A DNA stretch of 34,206 nucleotides. It comes from a virus. Numbering within the stretch: the first letter of the stretch is position 1; every line of letters begins with the position of its first letter. The stretch covers positions 1 through 34,206 of IMG/VR virus record IMGVR_UViG_3300017756_000049; one strand, written 5' to 3'. A program made the translations under genes and the position numbers. Of this stretch, positions 7,171 to 34,206 are shown piece by piece. The notes beneath the pieces are model-generated. The model was not told the DNA's origin. It searched no databases and saw only the letters and a list, made by a program, of their open reading frames with translations.

Positions 7171-9302
7171 TACTTAGCCCTCTGAGGAATATCATCTTCT
7201 AGTCCACGCTTCAAGATCTCTTGATTGTAATACTTACGCGCTACTTCAGGATCTTCTCTACGTAACTGAGCAAAGTAAGCCATACGAATCTTTCCTTGCG
7301 CTTTAGTTGTTACATCCTCAAGTACTTTCTTTCGACGTGACTTACTCATGTTCTTGTACGATGGTGATCTAATCAATCTCTCAAGTATTGGTGTGAGCAT
7401 CTCTGCTGACATCTGTCTGAACTCACCAAGCTGTTCAGTGGTCAGACCAACTCGCATGATGGTGTCACCTACACGTCCCTTGGTAAAGTTAAGATCAGTT
7501 AACTCTTGTTGTAGTTCTGATTGCGGTGTTGACTTAACACCGAAGCCTGTAATTGCTTGTATAAAGTCTGTCTCACGTGGCCCACCAATAGCACCGTATT
7601 CCATAGGCAAATCCCTACGAATTATTGGGAACCGTTGCTGTAGTTTTTCAAGTGGTGTTGTAGCCAAGCGTTCGTATGAATCTGTTGAGCGTGCAACCAT
7701 GTTTAAGAATGCAGGAGACAGAGGTCTTAATCCTGCCGCAGTAAATGATTCAATGTAACGAGCAGGGTCAGCCACAACTTCTGTAATGTTTGAAAAACCT
7801 TCCATAAAAGATTTACTAAACATGTTTGATTTTAATGCAGTCAGTATTGGCTTTACTCGATTTTCTAACCACTTCTCATCTTTGTCTGGATCTTTGCTTT
7901 GATTGTATTCATCTGTAATACGTATCAAATCTGATGTCAAACCAAGCACTGTAGCAATCGGCTCAATACGTTGATACGCTACCCATGAATCTCCAATCTT
8001 AATAGAGAATGGTTGAATACCTTGATCTTTCCATGCCTGTGCTTCCTGTGCATTCTTAGGTGATCCAGTAATTTGACCACTGCCATACATAGCCGCAACA
8101 CCTGCGAACATAGAAGCTCCTAAGATCTGACGAGGAATCAACTCATCATTGCTCATCTTCACAGGAGTAGCACCCTCAAGATACTTAGGTCTCAAAGCAA
8201 TTCCAAGCCCAGGAACAAACGATGTTCCTTCCTTCAATATGTTCCAAGGAGTTTTAATAAAAGGAACAAAATAAGTAAGTAGTGCGTTATCACGTCTTAA
8301 GTCTTGAGCAGTCTTTACAAATCCTATCAAAGGAGCCTGAAATGTTTGACGTAATGCAAACTCTTTTATTGATTTGTATGGTATAAAATCTTCATCTGAT
8401 TGTCCAAAGACTCTCCCAATGTCTGTCTTTAACTGACCAAACACGTCTTCAATTTCAAGTGCTTTACCTTCATCAACAACAGATAATGCTTCTTTGCGAT
8501 ACTGATTATATAACTCACGATAGTTACCCATACCCTTGGCAGAATCTTCTCGCGCTTTGACTGATGCCATCTGTGCTATCTTCTGTCTACGGAATCGAGC
8601 CTTACCATATTCATCAATTGCTACAGCCGCACGTGTAGGCCATCGAATAATATTCCCACCATACTCAGCAGGGATTGCACCACGAATGTAGTCATATGCT
8701 TCATCCATGTATGCTTCAAATTCATCAGGTGTAAAGCCTTGTTTTTCAAACGCATCCGTAAGTTGTTTCATTGTGGCTGTGTTGTCAGGATCTGCAAACT
8801 GTATTCTTGCTTTGCTTGCCGCAATCTCTTTGCCAATAATTTGCCGTGCTTTTGCAGGAGATACTTTAAGTTGACGCGCTAAAGCTGTAGTGCTACGAGT
8901 AATGTCAAGAGGATAACCACTCTTCCACCCTTGTTTCAGGAACATAATGTCAGCACCAAATCCCTCAAGTGCCGCCTCAAACATAGCCATACTATCAGCC
9001 AATGCACGATTACCTTTAGTAAGACGCAGGCTATCTGTGACTGCTCCAATCATTTCTAATGTGGGTGCTGTAAAGTTTTGAACACCAACAGAGATAGCGT
9101 TAGCAATAGGTGTACCAAAGCCTGACAAGTATCCATTGATTACACCTTCAAGTATTTTGTCTTTTAAACGAGTAGGCTTAGTTGCTTTGTTCAATCCTTT
9201 ACGAATTGCAATAGCAAGTTCTTTTTCACTAAGCTCTGAATTTTCCATTGTATCTAAAGCTAAATTAACTCTAGTATTACAAGCTTCACTTACTTTTGGC
9301 AT
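7170..9302 (-). CDS. Large internal virion protein (putative DNA-ejection protein)
   Basis: A 710-aa protein, last gene of the virion operon. It is helix-rich with hydrophobic and Gly/Ala-rich stretches (GTPIANAISVGVQNFTA near the N-terminus, ASMFAGVAAMYGSGQ in the middle) and blocks such as PFIKTPWNILKEG and QPFSIKIGDSW that I associate with internal/ejection proteins of marine podoviruses. Position after the tail and fibre genes matches T7 gp15/gp16. No lytic transglycosylase motif is evident. The start chosen is ATG 9302, sharing one base with the preceding stop (TAATG), with GGAG upstream; a GTG at 9308 is also possible. Confidence 0.75.
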   Translation of the reverse strand: MPKVSEACNTRVNLALDTMENSELSEKELAIAIRKGLNKATKPTRLKDKILEGVINGYLSGFGTPIANAISVGVQNFTAPTLEMIGAVTDSLRLTKGNRALADSMAMFEAALEGFGADIMFLKQGWKSGYPLDITRSTTALARQLKVSPAKARQIIGKEIAASKARIQFADPDNTATMKQLTDAFEKQGFTPDEFEAYMDEAYDYIRGAIPAEYGGNIIRWPTRAAVAIDEYGKARFRRQKIAQMASVKAREDSAKGMGNYRELYNQYRKEALSVVDEGKALEIEDVFGQLKTDIGRVFGQSDEDFIPYKSIKEFALRQTFQAPLIGFVKTAQDLRRDNALLTYFVPFIKTPWNILKEGTSFVPGLGIALRPKYLEGATPVKMSNDELIPRQILGASMFAGVAAMYGSGQITGSPKNAQEAQAWKDQGIQPFSIKIGDSWVAYQRIEPIATVLGLTSDLIRITDEYNQSKDPDKDEKWLENRVKPILTALKSNMFSKSFMEGFSNITEVVADPARYIESFTAAGLRPLSPAFLNMVARSTDSYERLATTPLEKLQQRFPIIRRDLPMEYGAIGGPRETDFIQAITGFGVKSTPQSELQQELTDLNFTKGRVGDTIMRVGLTTEQLGEFRQMSAEMLTPILERLIRSPSYKNMSKSRRKKVLEDVTTKAQGKIRMAYFAQLRREDPEVARKYYNQEILKRGLEDDIPQRAK

Positions 9303-11083
9303 TAACACTTAACTCCAAAGATGTCATCAATCGGCTTACCTGCTTTTACTTTAGCGGCATTTTTTCTGCGATTGGCTTTAATGTTCTGGATCTCTTTTAA
9401 TGCATGTGATGCACGAGTACCGTTGGTATCAATGATGTCAGCAATATAGCTATAGAACTGTAAGTCCATGACAGCATTGTATTCATCTTCTGTGTATGTG
9501 GTACTTCTGAATGATCCTTGAGAACGCATCTTACGCATAGCCTTGTAGGTTGTTGCGATACGTTGCTCTGCTTCTGCCCTCAGTGGTTCAAGTAGTCTTT
9601 GCTCTTGGAAATTAAATACTTTTCCTTTGCGTCCTGCGTCAATCAACCAATCAACAAGAGAGTCAAAGTCTTCACCAATTAGCTCTTTAACTTCTTGTTC
9701 CATTCGGGGGTTGTAGTCAAACGTGTATGCTCCAAACTTGTGTCCCATCAGATCTTGCAGTCTTTCTGATGCCGCAGACTGACGCTGTGCCGCACGTCTT
9801 AGGTCTTGCTCTGGTAATTCAAAACCTTGATCTGCCGCAGGCTCGACATTCTTACGAGACCACGCAGATGATACAAGTTCTGTTTCATCAACACCCTCTG
9901 CCGCTTGACCTGCATAACGTTGCTCTGGTCTAACACCTGCAGATCCTGCTGATGTACGTGGCTCAAAGCCCATTTGCAGTGGAGCAAAACCTTCTGCAGT
10001 TTGCTCAGTAGCCTGAGTAATTGGTTGACCTGCTTGTTGTGCTATCTGCACTTCTGGTTGTTGTGGTGTTACTTCTCGAACAACAGGTGTTTTTCCTTCA
10101 ACTTCTGTTGGTACTAAACGGGCTTGTGTTTCAGAAGATAGTTTATCTACTTGTCCTGTTTTAAGATTAGCTAGCTCTGCTCCTGCGGCTCTGCCTTCTT
10201 GACCTTTTTTAATACGCAAACGCATCTCACGTACTTCACCCATTAACCGTGAGCGAATACCTTCAAACCTTTCTAACGCTTCTTGTCCTGCCGCTTTATC
10301 ATCTTTCGCCCGTAACCCTTTAGTACGTTTTGCTGAAGCTTGCTCAATCTGCTCAACACGTGCAAGTCTTTCATCAATACCTTTTTGAATAACTTCTTCG
10401 GTGTCAAGAGTAATTCCACTTTTTGATTTAGCTTCGAGTTCAGCTTCAATTTCTTGACGCGCTTCATCCACAGTCTTAGTACGAGTAGCAGGCTGTACTG
10501 CTTCTGCAACATCTTCAAGTGCTGAGTCAACACCTTCATCTACTTCTTGTTTTGTTGGTGGCGTAACGTCACGCGCTATAAACTTAGACAATGCTCCACC
10601 AAGAGCACCACCAAATGCAGCCCCTACTGTTGTGTTTAAAAGTCTGCTATCATCAAACTCTTCAAACACAGGTTCGACTGCACCGCCTGCCGCACCGACA
10701 ATACCGCCACGTGCTACGCCAGTTGCAAGTTTACTTCCAAGGGTAATTGGTTTTAAAAAAGCCGCAGGTAGTGTGACTGGATCAAGAATAGAACCAACAA
10801 GTAAACCACCATAACCTGCGTATGGAGATTGCTTTAGCTGTACACGACTACGAAACTCATCTTCATATGAGTCTTCATAGAAGCCTAAGCCTGTAAGATT
10901 TGAGATACCCTCAATAGATGATTCAAGTCCCTCACCTAATTGATTAAAGAACACCTCTCCTGACGTGCCTTCAGGTTCAGTAACTGATCCAACTCGTAGT
11001 AGAATTTCTTCTATCTGATCAGGAGGAGTCCCATCAGGTAATTCAACTCTACCTAATACAGGATGATCAACTCTAATTGACAT
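9302..11083 (-). CDS. Internal virion protein with glycine-zipper segment (putative)
   Basis: A 593-aa protein beginning MSIRVDHPVLGRVELPDG. Residues about 85-165 carry Gly/Ala-rich hydrophobic segments (GYGGLLVGSILDP, GGIVGAAGGAVE, VGAAFGGALGGALSK), typical of proteins that insert in membranes during DNA ejection. A long charged helical region rich in Glu, Lys and Gln follows (coiled-coil likely, about 170-330), then a Pro/Gln/Thr-rich linker. TAATG couples it to the genes on both sides. Most likely one of the T7 gp14-16-type core proteins. Exact role not determined. Confidence 0.65.
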   Translation of the reverse strand: MSIRVDHPVLGRVELPDGTPPDQIEEILLRVGSVTEPEGTSGEVFFNQLGEGLESSIEGISNLTGLGFYEDSYEDEFRSRVQLKQSPYAGYGGLLVGSILDPVTLPAAFLKPITLGSKLATGVARGGIVGAAGGAVEPVFEEFDDSRLLNTTVGAAFGGALGGALSKFIARDVTPPTKQEVDEGVDSALEDVAEAVQPATRTKTVDEARQEIEAELEAKSKSGITLDTEEVIQKGIDERLARVEQIEQASAKRTKGLRAKDDKAAGQEALERFEGIRSRLMGEVREMRLRIKKGQEGRAAGAELANLKTGQVDKLSSETQARLVPTEVEGKTPVVREVTPQQPEVQIAQQAGQPITQATEQTAEGFAPLQMGFEPRTSAGSAGVRPEQRYAGQAAEGVDETELVSSAWSRKNVEPAADQGFELPEQDLRRAAQRQSAASERLQDLMGHKFGAYTFDYNPRMEQEVKELIGEDFDSLVDWLIDAGRKGKVFNFQEQRLLEPLRAEAEQRIATTYKAMRKMRSQGSFRSTTYTEDEYNAVMDLQFYSYIADIIDTNGTRASHALKEIQNIKANRRKNAAKVKAGKPIDDIFGVKC

Positions 11084-27433: not shown

Positions 27434-27896
27434 CAGTTTTTGCTTCCTTCATGATGTCAACAAGCTCTGCACTACGACGACCTACTTGACGATACCACTT
27501 TGAATCAATCATTTCGTTGGCGGCCATCAAGTAGTTCCCTTCATTCACATAACTAATCATGTTCTTAAACTTACCTAAGCGATTACGCCCAAGGTTAAAC
27601 GCCATGTTTACTAACACACGTTGTACATCATCAGGATGTGAGCTAAAGTTTAACACAAGCGCACACGCATCACTGTACGCAACATCACAATCATCATGGA
27701 ATACTTGGAGGATGCGCTCATCAGTTACAGGAGTTCCAACAGGCCATGTGTATTCCATGTCGTCTTCTGTAACAAGGTGACCAATTCCAAAAGTGGGTAG
27801 GTTTTCACTGTCAAGATAAATCTCAGCAACGTAACCTTCGTGGCGAACGAGATCTTCTTTTACAATCTCAATCAGTTCATTCTTCGTTATCGACAT
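27426..27896 (-). CDS. Endolysin, T4-type lysozyme (GH24)
   Basis: A 156-aa muramidase. The catalytic triad is visible with the same spacing as T4 lysozyme: Glu20 (RHEG), Asp29 (YLDS) and Thr35 (PTFGIGH), compared with E11/D20/T26. Further matches: VNMAFNLGRNRLGKF, then SKWYRQVGRRSAEL. No signal peptide, so it needs a holin (17879-18247 is the best candidate, almost 10 kb away in the same operon). It overlaps the small-terminase gene by 20 nt. Position between terminase genes is unusual. Confidence 0.88.
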   Translation of the reverse strand: MSITKNELIEIVKEDLVRHEGYVAEIYLDSENLPTFGIGHLVTEDDMEYTWPVGTPVTDERILQVFHDDCDVAYSDACALVLNFSSHPDDVQRVLVNMAFNLGRNRLGKFKNMISYVNEGNYLMAANEMIDSKWYRQVGRRSAELVDIMKEAKTDG

Positions 27897-28275
27897 CGAT
27901 TACCTCTGCATCAATAATATCATCTTGACCTGTGATTACAGTATCGCCACCCACGCCTGTAATCGTAATACTTACACTAGATTTACCTGTAGTGTTTTTA
28001 TCTCTCTCAAAATAACTAACAGGCAACATACGATCCATTAGTAACTTCCACGCCGCCGCTTGATTTTTATGTTCATCGTCTAGTGCCGCGTTCATAATAC
28101 TATCCAATACCTTTTGAGATCTTGGACTGGCTAACAAACGCGCCTTGAATTCATTGATTGCCGCCGCATCACCGGGAGGTCTACCACGTTTGCCACGTTT
28201 GCCCGCCTTCTTAGACTCAACAATCGACTTACGAGGTCTTCCTACTCGTTTTTTTGTTGGAGTATTCTCTGTCAT
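27877..28275 (-). CDS. Putative terminase small subunit with AT-hooks
   Basis: A 132-aa DNA-binding protein, first gene of the virion operon. The basic N-terminus carries two AT-hook-like motifs (KRVGRPRKS and KRGRPPGD). A helical middle follows (INEFKARLLASPRSQKVLDS, then NQAAAWKLLMDRMLPVSYF) and a beta/acidic tail (DIIDAEVIDVDNEE). Position and helical design suit a small terminase that recognises DNA for packaging; similar proteins occupy this place in marine podoviruses. A role as an AT-hook regulator is the alternative. Confidence 0.62.
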   Translation of the reverse strand: MTENTPTKKRVGRPRKSIVESKKAGKRGKRGRPPGDAAAINEFKARLLASPRSQKVLDSIMNAALDDEHKNQAAAWKLLMDRMLPVSYFERDKNTTGKSSVSITITGVGGDTVITGQDDIIDAEVIDVDNEE

Positions 28276-28308
28276 ATACAGTACTCTGTAGTTATCGCAA
28301 CAATCATT

Positions 28309-28366
28309 GCAAGAGATTGTAAGAGATAATAATTACTACTTGCGTTTTTCTCTTGCGTTATCTCTT
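28309..28366. repeat. Nested AAGAGA inverted repeats in minus-operon leader
   Basis: GCAAGAGA (28309-28316) pairs with TCTCTTGC (28349-28356), and AAGAGATAA (28321-28329) with TTATCTCTT (28358-28366). The 12-mer GTAAGAGATAAT at 28319 also occurs at 32105. The repeats lie just downstream of the minus-strand promoter, so they could be operator sites or fold the 5' leader of the virion transcript. Confidence 0.75.
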
Positions 28367-28376
28367 TAGTGCTAAT

Positions 28377-28405
28377 ATTGTAGCATACTTTTAAGGATTT
28401 GTCAA
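28377..28405 (-). promoter_or_regulatory. Sigma70 promoter for the terminase/virion operon
   Basis: On the minus strand TTGACA (28405-28400), 17-bp spacer, TACAAT (28382-28377): one mismatch from perfect. The -35 is one arm of TGTCAA-N10-TTGACA (28400-28421), a dyad that could bind a regulator over the promoter. Transcription would start near 28370 and read about 95 nt of structured leader before the small-terminase gene. Confidence 0.82.
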
Positions 28406-28619
28406 GTTATATTTTGACACTACAATATAGTTTCCCTTCTTCGGCGGGTTTCAGGCAGTATTCCTCCGCAGTGCGTAATTGATTTTCTCTATTATAATCA
28501 GTATCTTAATCAGTTCTTACGCAAATGCAAATCATTCTTATTTAAATCCTAAATTCACCTTTTTTTGTATCTGAGTAGGTACACTATATCGACGCAATGT
28601 TGTGCGCCCTCCCCCGGCC

Positions 28620-28745
28620 TGTGGATAACTTTGGGGATAACTATTTAATTTCTGTGGATAACTCAACAATCCTGTGGATAAATATGCTCTGCCTGTGGAA
28701 AACTAGCGAGAGAATGTGTATAAGTAGTACCTACCCCGTGGATAA
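28620..28745 (+). other. Phased array of seven DnaA boxes: candidate replication origin
   Basis: Same-orientation 9-mers start at 28620 (TGTGGATAA), 28632 (TGGGGATAA), 28653 and 28673 (TGTGGATAA), 28694 (TGTGGAAAA), 28715 (TGTGTATAA) and 28737 (CGTGGATAA). Four match the DnaA consensus TTATNCACA exactly (reverse complement); three differ at one base. From the second box on, starts are 21, 20, 21, 21 and 22 bp apart, two helical turns. Sequence between boxes is not conserved, so these are boxes and not long iterons. The first box context CCTGTGGATAAC equals that of E. coli oriC R1 as I recall it. Confidence 0.85.
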
Positions 28746-28815
28746 GTCTGTTAATACCCCACCTATGTAACCAATAGTTCTAATAACCCAGATCCTTATG
28801 ACAAATTAATCTAAC

Positions 28816-28832
28816 GATTAACCTGGTTAACC
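28816..28832 (+). repeat. GTTAACC dispersed repeat, degenerate copy
   Basis: GATTAACCTGGTTAACC, 14 of 17 positions as in the other copies. It ends exactly one base before the -35 hexamer of the predicted early promoter, where a regulator would contact RNA polymerase. Confidence 0.75.
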
Positions 28833-28860
28833 TTGACGCACGACTGGTTTCTGTTAGCAT
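28833..28860 (+). promoter_or_regulatory. Predicted early promoter of the plus arm
   Basis: TTGACG (28833-28838), 16-bp spacer, TAGCAT (28855-28860) preceded by an extended -10 TGT. Weaker than the other promoters but well placed, with the degenerate GTTAACC repeat abutting the -35. The transcript would carry about 55 nt of AT-rich leader before ATG 28924. Confidence 0.6.
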
Positions 28861-28923
28861 GTACATATGGTCAATAAAGATCATAAATAAAGTAAATAGT
28901 AAATATATAGACTGGAGGGTCTA

Positions 28924-29463
28924 ATGACTACTAAAAACGAAGCGATTCAATTCGATGGGAAAGGTGTGTCTTACGCGAAGTTCTTAAATACTGATGTGAG
29001 CTTGATTGTTGAGTCCACGGATGGTAAGCAAGTGTCGAACATGGTCGAGATGGTTAACCAAGTTAACCTAGACAAGGATATCATCAAGGGCTATTGCTCT
29101 GAGTTTGAATCAATGTTGCTTGCGGCGGGTAAGGATAAGCAGACAATCAAGGCTTTAAAGTCTGCCAGAAAATGCGTATTGGATTTCGCACTAGGCATTC
29201 GCAAGAAGCAACAGGCCCAGCCGGAACTATGGGAAAATGGCGAAGGTAAGACCATGATTGTCAAAGAGTTCAAAGGAGCCGGTAATATCAACGCTCTAGC
29301 GGGACTATGCCGCGAAGCCGAAGGCGACGAAGAAGCACCGAAGCCTTGGGACCTTGGCGAAAAACTCAACGCATTGCTTGAGAAAGCATACGAAGAGGGC
29401 TACAACCAAGCCGATATCCAGAAAGCGTTCAAGGAGTTGACAGCCGAACCGAAAGCGGCGTAA
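28924..29463 (+). CDS. First early gene; unknown function
   Basis: A 179-aa acidic protein (MTTKNEAIQFDGKGVSYAKF) with a good GGAGGG site. The middle is helical (LLAAGKDKQTIKALKSARKC), and the C-terminal half is Glu/Ala/Lys-rich (EKLNALLEKAYEEGYNQADI). Codons 43-48 (MVNQVNL region) are the in-frame reading of a GTTAACC repeat. It is the leftmost plus-strand gene, next to the origin-like region, and is followed by its own strong terminator, so it is a single-gene unit. Such genes in T7-like phages are often host-takeover proteins, which is inference here. Confidence 0.72.
   Translation: MTTKNEAIQFDGKGVSYAKFLNTDVSLIVESTDGKQVSNMVEMVNQVNLDKDIIKGYCSEFESMLLAAGKDKQTIKALKSARKCVLDFALGIRKKQQAQPELWENGEGKTMIVKEFKGAGNINALAGLCREAEGDEEAPKPWDLGEKLNALLEKAYEEGYNQADIQKAFKELTAEPKAA
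29052..29068 (+). repeat. GTTAACC dispersed repeat, copy 3 (inside early gene)
   Basis: Exact GGTTAACCAAGTTAACC inside the first early gene, read as Val-Asn-Gln-Val-Asn. This is a different reading frame from the copies at 2901 and 33181, which are read Leu-Thr-Lys-Leu-Thr. Conservation is therefore at the DNA or RNA level, not the protein level. Confidence 0.95.
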
Positions 29464-33947: not shown

Positions 33948-34206
33948 TGAAGGTATTGGTACTCGACATTGAGACCAACCTCGCACACGATACGATATGG
34001 TGCTGTGTTGCTAACGATAAGGTGTGTCTTGATTCAACTGGTTTGCAAGAACTGATTGACTCACATGACGTTATTGTTGGACATAACATCATCGGGTTTG
34101 ACGGGCCAGTGCTGTCACGGGTTTGGGGAGTAAAGATTCCCCTCTCCAAAGTTCGTGACACTCTGGTTATGTCAAGGCTATACAATCCACAACTTGAAGG
34201 TGGGCA
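33947..34206 (+). CDS. DNA polymerase, family A (5' part; continues at base 2)
   Basis: The N-terminal 86 codons of the polymerase, cut by the window end. It begins MKVLVLDIETNLAHDTIWCC with the exonuclease motif DIET (7-10), then VGHNIIGFDGPVLSRVWGV with motif II (Asn47, Asp52). The start shares a base with the primase-helicase stop (TAATG). Its last 31 codons duplicate the beginning of the left-end fragment with about 87% DNA identity. Confidence 0.95.
   Translation, partial: MKVLVLDIETNLAHDTIWCCVANDKVCLDSTGLQELIDSHDVIVGHNIIGFDGPVLSRVWGVKIPLSKVRDTLVMSRLYNPQLEGG
34114..34206 (+). repeat. Right copy of diverged terminal redundancy
   Basis: Partner of bases 1-93 in the same polymerase frame, 12 mismatches by hand count. 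Removing it leaves 34113 bp as the likely unit genome length. Confidence 0.85.

Follow-up and report, generated by a model that had tools for sequence, protein, structure and literature searches.

A helically phased DnaA-box array as one version of a putative exchangeable host-regulator-binding module in an uncultured podovirus family

The E. coli datA locus is a chromosomal cluster of consensus and near-consensus DnaA boxes that needs IHF for the hydrolysis of DnaA-ATP (PMC5835720). In phage lambda, the binding of host DnaA at pR/ori-lambda promotes ori transcription and so stimulates early and replication transcription (PMC8203912; PMC3985674); lambda is temperate, supplies its own O and P initiators, and has two consensus-resembling boxes at pO rather than a phased and exchangeable array. 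A marine cyanophage has genes under the control of the host regulator PhoB, through boxes at individual promoters and not through arrays that change identity among relatives; the same source reports that bioinformatic site prediction in a phage was unreliable without binding assays (PMC10976474). The array considered here lies in the IMG/VR record, 34,206 bases long, of a marine virus of bacteria, analysed whole and referred to below as the window. It resembles datA in its mixture of consensus and near-consensus boxes, and the lambda and cyanophage cases resemble the role that is proposed for it. A search of the literature on phage DnaA titration, decoy sites, sigma54/NtrC control and T5 DnaA boxes, one T5 review lying outside its coverage, yielded no description of such a module.

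The injection-stop signal of the unrelated phage T5 (iss; T5 9140-10149, positions 1341-2350 of L507), tied by annotation to two-step DNA entry, brings DnaA, LexA and Fur sites together in terminal DNA that is non-coding, a combination with which the sites of the window and its relatives may be compared. Within it are a LexA box matching at 20/20, several Fur boxes in a row, and four DnaA or near-DnaA boxes, one of them perfect, arranged as two pairs at 12-bp spacing; these boxes may have been noted before. In the T5-like Salmonella phage bombadil (L493, 380-1300), a longer Fur-like array, annotated merely as repeat regions, lies beside DnaA boxes and a LexA box. The Berlinvirus NJ2 of Enterobacter, reached through a BLAST match, has boxes spaced 12, 22, 30, 22 and 22 bp, and similar arrays are found in E. 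coli phage P483, Shigella phage VB_Ship_A7 and a Klebsiella Przondovirus. The arrays of P483, A7 and NJ2 are, like that of the window, tandem TTATCCACA/TTACCCACA boxes, mostly at spacings of 11-12, 22-23 and 34 bp, in non-coding DNA near a packaging gene. In P483 and A7 the array occupies an exchanged block of ~150 bp (L492, L494, L501-L506) that, between conserved flanks, consists of other sequence in P151, CarlSpitteler, DS_BP2, SWJM-03, D226 and ErnstBeyeler. Unlike the window's phage, these cultured Berlinviruses are true T7-like phages in which an own RNA polymerase is expected; their DnaA boxes are unannotated and, to our knowledge, unstudied. At the level of sequence they provide the example in a T7-like group that an earlier, sequence-only reading of the window had not known. 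DnaA boxes were absent from the right ends of T7 and T3 and from the first 2.5 kb of T5.

Within the DNA polymerase gene, positions 34114-34189 of the window repeat positions 1-76 with 93% identity over the 76 bp. The set of genes is therefore nearly complete, and the contig is probably a join between two strains, differing slightly, of a genome assembled as a circle. The early/replication arm runs rightward from 28,924 and wraps to ~7.1 kb (primase-helicase, polymerase, exonuclease, nrdA/nrdB), and the late arm runs leftward from 28,275 down to 7,170 (terL, portal, capsid, internal virion protein). The replication genes are T7-type, and to that extent the initial description of the genome as T7-like stands; it does not extend to the portal, which is distantly HMO-2011-like. 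The single-subunit RNA polymerase of its own by which a phage qualifies for the Autographiviridae has no candidate in the ORF inventory or in Pfam and PHROGs scans of the window, in agreement with the initial reading, the result resting on the ORF inventory. The two arms diverge from a 648-bp intergenic control region (28276-28923), with the first late gene (27877-28275, minus strand, small terminase by position) on one side and the first early gene (28924-29463, plus strand, 179 amino acids) on the other; neither gene has a family match. A GC-skew minimum lies at 28-29 kb and is confounded with gene direction. Genome contigs offered two host links, both MAG contigs (Sphingobacteriales, Verrucomicrobiales) that are probably mis-binned and were set aside; the identities of regulators given here rest on motif matches.

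Seven minus-strand DnaA boxes occupy 28620-28745. Three are perfect copies of TTATCCACA (28620-28628, 28653-28661 and 28673-28681), two more fit TTWTNCACA (TTTTCCACA at 28694-28702 and TTATACACA at 28715-28723), and two have one mismatch and may be weak (TTATCCCCA at 28632-28640 and TTATCCACG at 28737-28745). Successive starts are 12, 21, 20, 21, 21 and 22 bp apart, which bears out the original count of seven same-strand boxes in 126 bp, six of them with starts separated by 20-22 bp. The clustering exceeds chance: the intergenic region has five strict TTWTNCACA boxes, and 5000 dinucleotide shuffles of it gave none in 4615 cases, one in 371 and two in 14, while 200 shuffles of the whole window never put more than two boxes in any 126-bp stretch. 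Chance was rejected on these grounds. An assembly accident is unlikely because a second IMG/VR contig, L002, repeats all seven boxes with identical spacings. The anatomy of the array is solid; its function is inferred. Five consensus and two one-mismatch boxes at one locus make a datA-like set; the IHF arrangement of datA does not adjoin it, the intergenic region containing no IHF consensus and the nearest lying at ~29145. A search of 19 records revealed no Bac_DnaA homologue, the control being positive, and BLAST of the intergenic DNA against plasmids and phages gave just short matches driven by the boxes.

The rest of the intergenic region is also populated. A leftward sigma70-type promoter, TTGACA-N17-TACAAT (28377-28405, minus strand, 11/12), kept in relatives, would serve the terS/terL late operon. 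To its right, on the plus strand, are a Fur-box-like site, AATGCAAATCATTCTTATT (28524-28542, two mismatches from consensus), copies of which with 0-3 mismatches are found in many relatives down to ~54% TerL identity, and a left bracket motif, BL, TTTTTTGTATCTGAGTAGG (28561-28579), after which comes a C-rich tract. The distance from BL to the start of the module is ~58-68 bp in most TerL-close relatives and 80-82 bp in a few. A right bracket motif, BR, GTGTATAAGTAGTACC (28716-28731, plus strand), which reads GTGTCTGAGTAGCACC in sigma54-type relatives, overlaps the box at 28715; since BR is present without DnaA boxes in relatives, the match of that box may be partly incidental. A rightward sigma70-like early promoter candidate, TTGACG-N16-TAGCAT (28833-28860, plus strand, 9/12), lies 88 bp right of the last box and by itself is not above chance (2.8 expected in the scanned region). 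The window's intergenic region has DnaA boxes and a Fur-like box; it lacks sigma54 sites and a LexA box, LexA-like boxes being found in relatives. The palindrome GATTAACCTGGTTAACC (28816-28832, plus strand) is one of seven genome-wide GGTTAACNNNGTTAACC copies, against 0.07 expected (at 2901, 7154, 28816, 29052, 29588, 30711 and 33181). All seven are on the plus strand, in the early arm or at its end, and three of the four that were folded form an RNA stem-loop; a phage operator or an RNA element is possible.

How the array fares among relatives was surveyed in 240 loci collected by TerL searches, in which DnaA boxes were not a selection criterion. For 135 of them the sequence extends 2 kb or more upstream of TerL. 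A DnaA array is present in 60 of these and one or more perfect sigma54 sites (TGGCAYRNNNNTTGCW) in 52, and 42 are without either; nearly all of the arrays and sites lie upstream of terS/terL. After dereplication to 110 zones, perfect DnaA boxes number 172 (1.4 expected) and perfect sigma54 sites 128 (0.2 expected), with 28 Fur sites against ~0 and 12 NtrC sites against 0.3; motifs for CRP, FNR, ArgR, PurR, OxyR and other regulators are near expectation in the same zones, and the IHF motif stands at 46 against 10.8, partly through one conserved L104-group copy far from the array. The 88 distinct sigma54-type sites match the textbook -24/-12 pattern with varying spacer bases. TTATCCACA accounts for 168 of the 236 boxes within arrays, and in long records perfect boxes are rare outside the module. 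Independent pattern scans of IMG/VR agree: of 120 loci having three spaced DnaA boxes, 45 belong to the window's phage family, as do ~30 of 80 having paired sigma54 sites. No array was seen in ten of the better-known marine relatives, namely HMO-2011, CRP-3, CRP-345, HTVC115P, HTVC104P, SIO1, P12053L, ICBM1, MW202701 (an HMO-2011-like spring phage genome) and Vibrio 1.157.O, six of the ten having been scanned over the first 50 kb only.

The helical phasing that was first remarked in the window extends to its relatives. For 24 distinct same-strand spacing signatures, not fully independent where arrays are related, the spacing resultant R reaches 0.73 for a period of 10.8 bp, the highest null value being 0.41. 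Spacings cluster at 11-12, 19-22 and 31-35 bp, and R is still 0.68 once neighbours 11-12 bp apart are excluded. Order and orientation vary among the signatures, which looks like repeated selection on phase and not like one inherited layout.

Alignment of the closest relatives shows a conserved left flank (the Fur-like box, TTTTTTGTATCTGAGTAGG and the C-rich tract), a variable module, and then BR. L003 and L010, with TerL 91-95% identical, have three sigma54-type sites in place of the window's DnaA boxes. DnaA and sigma54 sites are interleaved in L023, LexA-like boxes accompany sigma54 sites in L039, and three Fur-like and three NtrC-like sites without a sigma54 site are present in L054. Arrays of 8-9 sigma54 sites in alternating orientation are found in L269-L271 and L278, L269 having nine, many of which alternate. 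L013 has three copies of the TTAGTCATGACTAA palindrome. L011 and L019 have no recognised array, and from such relatives it follows that the role of the array is dispensable or replaceable. A TerL tree with 110 tips requires no fewer than 40 changes of module type, an approximate count because the motif thresholds influence the type labels, and different module types occur within three sets of identical TerLs. Conservation in relatives, which the sequence-only reading had proposed as a check, therefore has two sides: the array recurs in many relatives, and close relatives swap it for other sites. The best-supported interpretation of these patterns is that the seven boxes represent the DnaA version of an exchangeable host-regulator-binding module, placed between the conserved left flank and the early operon, in a large family of uncultured podoviruses.

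Several features of these genomes deserve separate mention. Repeated sites of no recognised type are found at the module position: TTAGTCATGACTAA, CTACACAGC and AAGACATAAGAGTACTC-type (L013, L042 and L293/L344/L349). A conserved LexA-like palindrome, mostly CTGTATGCATACACAG, precedes by ~60 bp a sigma54-like site that stands ahead of the first early gene in L241 (in the form CTGTATACATACACAG), L246, L248, L261, L263, L274, L277, L281 and L289. Early promoters driven by NtrC and sigma54 are likely in L291 (~1100-1350 upstream of TerL) and at further loci of the L104 group, in which no integrase was seen.

What might such a module do? The reading that we favour, tentatively and at somewhat less than an even chance, is that it tunes the first stage of infection, the window having the DnaA version. 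Host DnaA would bind the array cooperatively along one face of the DNA, as other host proteins would bind the alternative modules, and the bound regulators would adjust that first stage to the state of the host. The steps so tuned would be the firing of the early operon and possibly the entry or settling of incoming DNA; the action of the array would be akin to the DnaA stimulation of lambda pR/ori transcription. Titration of DnaA with rising copy number would follow automatically and might be part of the benefit. In the L104 group all 15 members in which both a sigma54 site and a start codon were found have the site 31-47 nt ahead of the first early start codon, and in the L085 group the distance is 38-49 nt in 13 members. 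In one subgroup, of which L291 is an example, NtrC-like sites stand 151 and 182 bp upstream of the -24 element and the DnaA array lies in between. This spacing, with NtrC-like sites at the classical enhancer distance, is the anatomy of a regulated early promoter. Set against early control are the position of the window's array, 88 bp from a weak early candidate and ~215 bp from the late promoter, which is not an obvious activator position; the alternating arrays of 8-9 sigma54 sites, which fit sinks better than promoters; and a Fur-type site in both deep branches without obvious promoter overlap.

The alternating sigma54 arrays are at home in an unlikely but substantial alternative, titration, which the sequence-only reading had also named for DnaA: accumulating phage copies, with 5-7 good boxes each, would soak up host DnaA and so stall host replication or rewire transcription, and in relatives sigma54 and NtrC would be soaked up likewise. 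Alternating orientation makes poor sense for promoters, the bound regulator differs among close relatives, and titration is plausible because the boxes are mostly top-consensus and because fewer boxes already matter at datA (PMC5835720). A sink requires no fixed place and no strict phasing, however, and in the L104 group, as in some members of the L085 group, the sigma54 site stands at the place expected of an early promoter. A single Fur or LexA site per genome, to judge by general copy numbers, would not titrate abundant repressors.

Replication offers a further and distinctly less likely explanation, the one with which the sequence-only reading began: phased DnaA would open neighbouring DNA for the phage primase-helicase and polymerase. 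The boxes are on the same strand and phased, the array coincides with the GC-skew minimum and stands where the replication operon begins, and the phage has its own primase-helicase and polymerase with no RNA polymerase seen; the skew, as already stated, is confounded with gene direction. The proposal is weakened because in relatives with 90-95% TerL identity the position of the array is taken by sites of the sigma54 or another type. The array is missing from over half of the relatives sampled (60/135 have it) and module type switches often, which falls short of the conservation of an oriC-type element across its replicon family; the AT content beside DnaA arrays equals that beside sigma54 arrays, so that the flanks disclose no AT-rich unwinding element specific to the DnaA version. 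Frequent loss and exchange and the lack of such an element together lower this reading, and it is improbable that the array serves as a dedicated origin of replication. Berlinviruses, which are close relatives of T7, so that T7-type origins are expected of them, carry such arrays too. Least likely, and improbable on present indications, is a DNA-entry signal like the T5 injection-stop region, at which host proteins on incoming terminal DNA would pause, anchor or protect it. The LexA, DnaA and Fur sites of the T5 signal and of bombadil speak for it, as do Berlinvirus arrays beyond gene 19/19.5, near the genome end, and the terminal repeat that ICBM1, sharing the two-arm gene order, has between its divergent arms. 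Contig ends of the window's phage family nevertheless show no sharp pile-up, and two-step DNA entry is known only in T5-like phages.

The module may, finally, have a wider compass. It is possible, though we think it rather less than probable, that unrelated lytic phages (marine podoviruses, Berlinviruses and T5-like phages) independently keep exchangeable DnaA, sigma54, NtrC, Fur and LexA arrays in terminal or early non-coding DNA, constituting a general class of landing module that would sense or hijack the state of the host and would be swapped between lineages as units. If the module works in the way proposed, a widely distributed group of phages has the first of its switches plugged directly into the replication, nitrogen and iron regulators of its hosts and swaps the plug as it changes. 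There would then be a DNA-level handle on how host physiology sets the outcome of infection, and one already open to bench tests, since P483 and T5, which infect E. coli, share the design.
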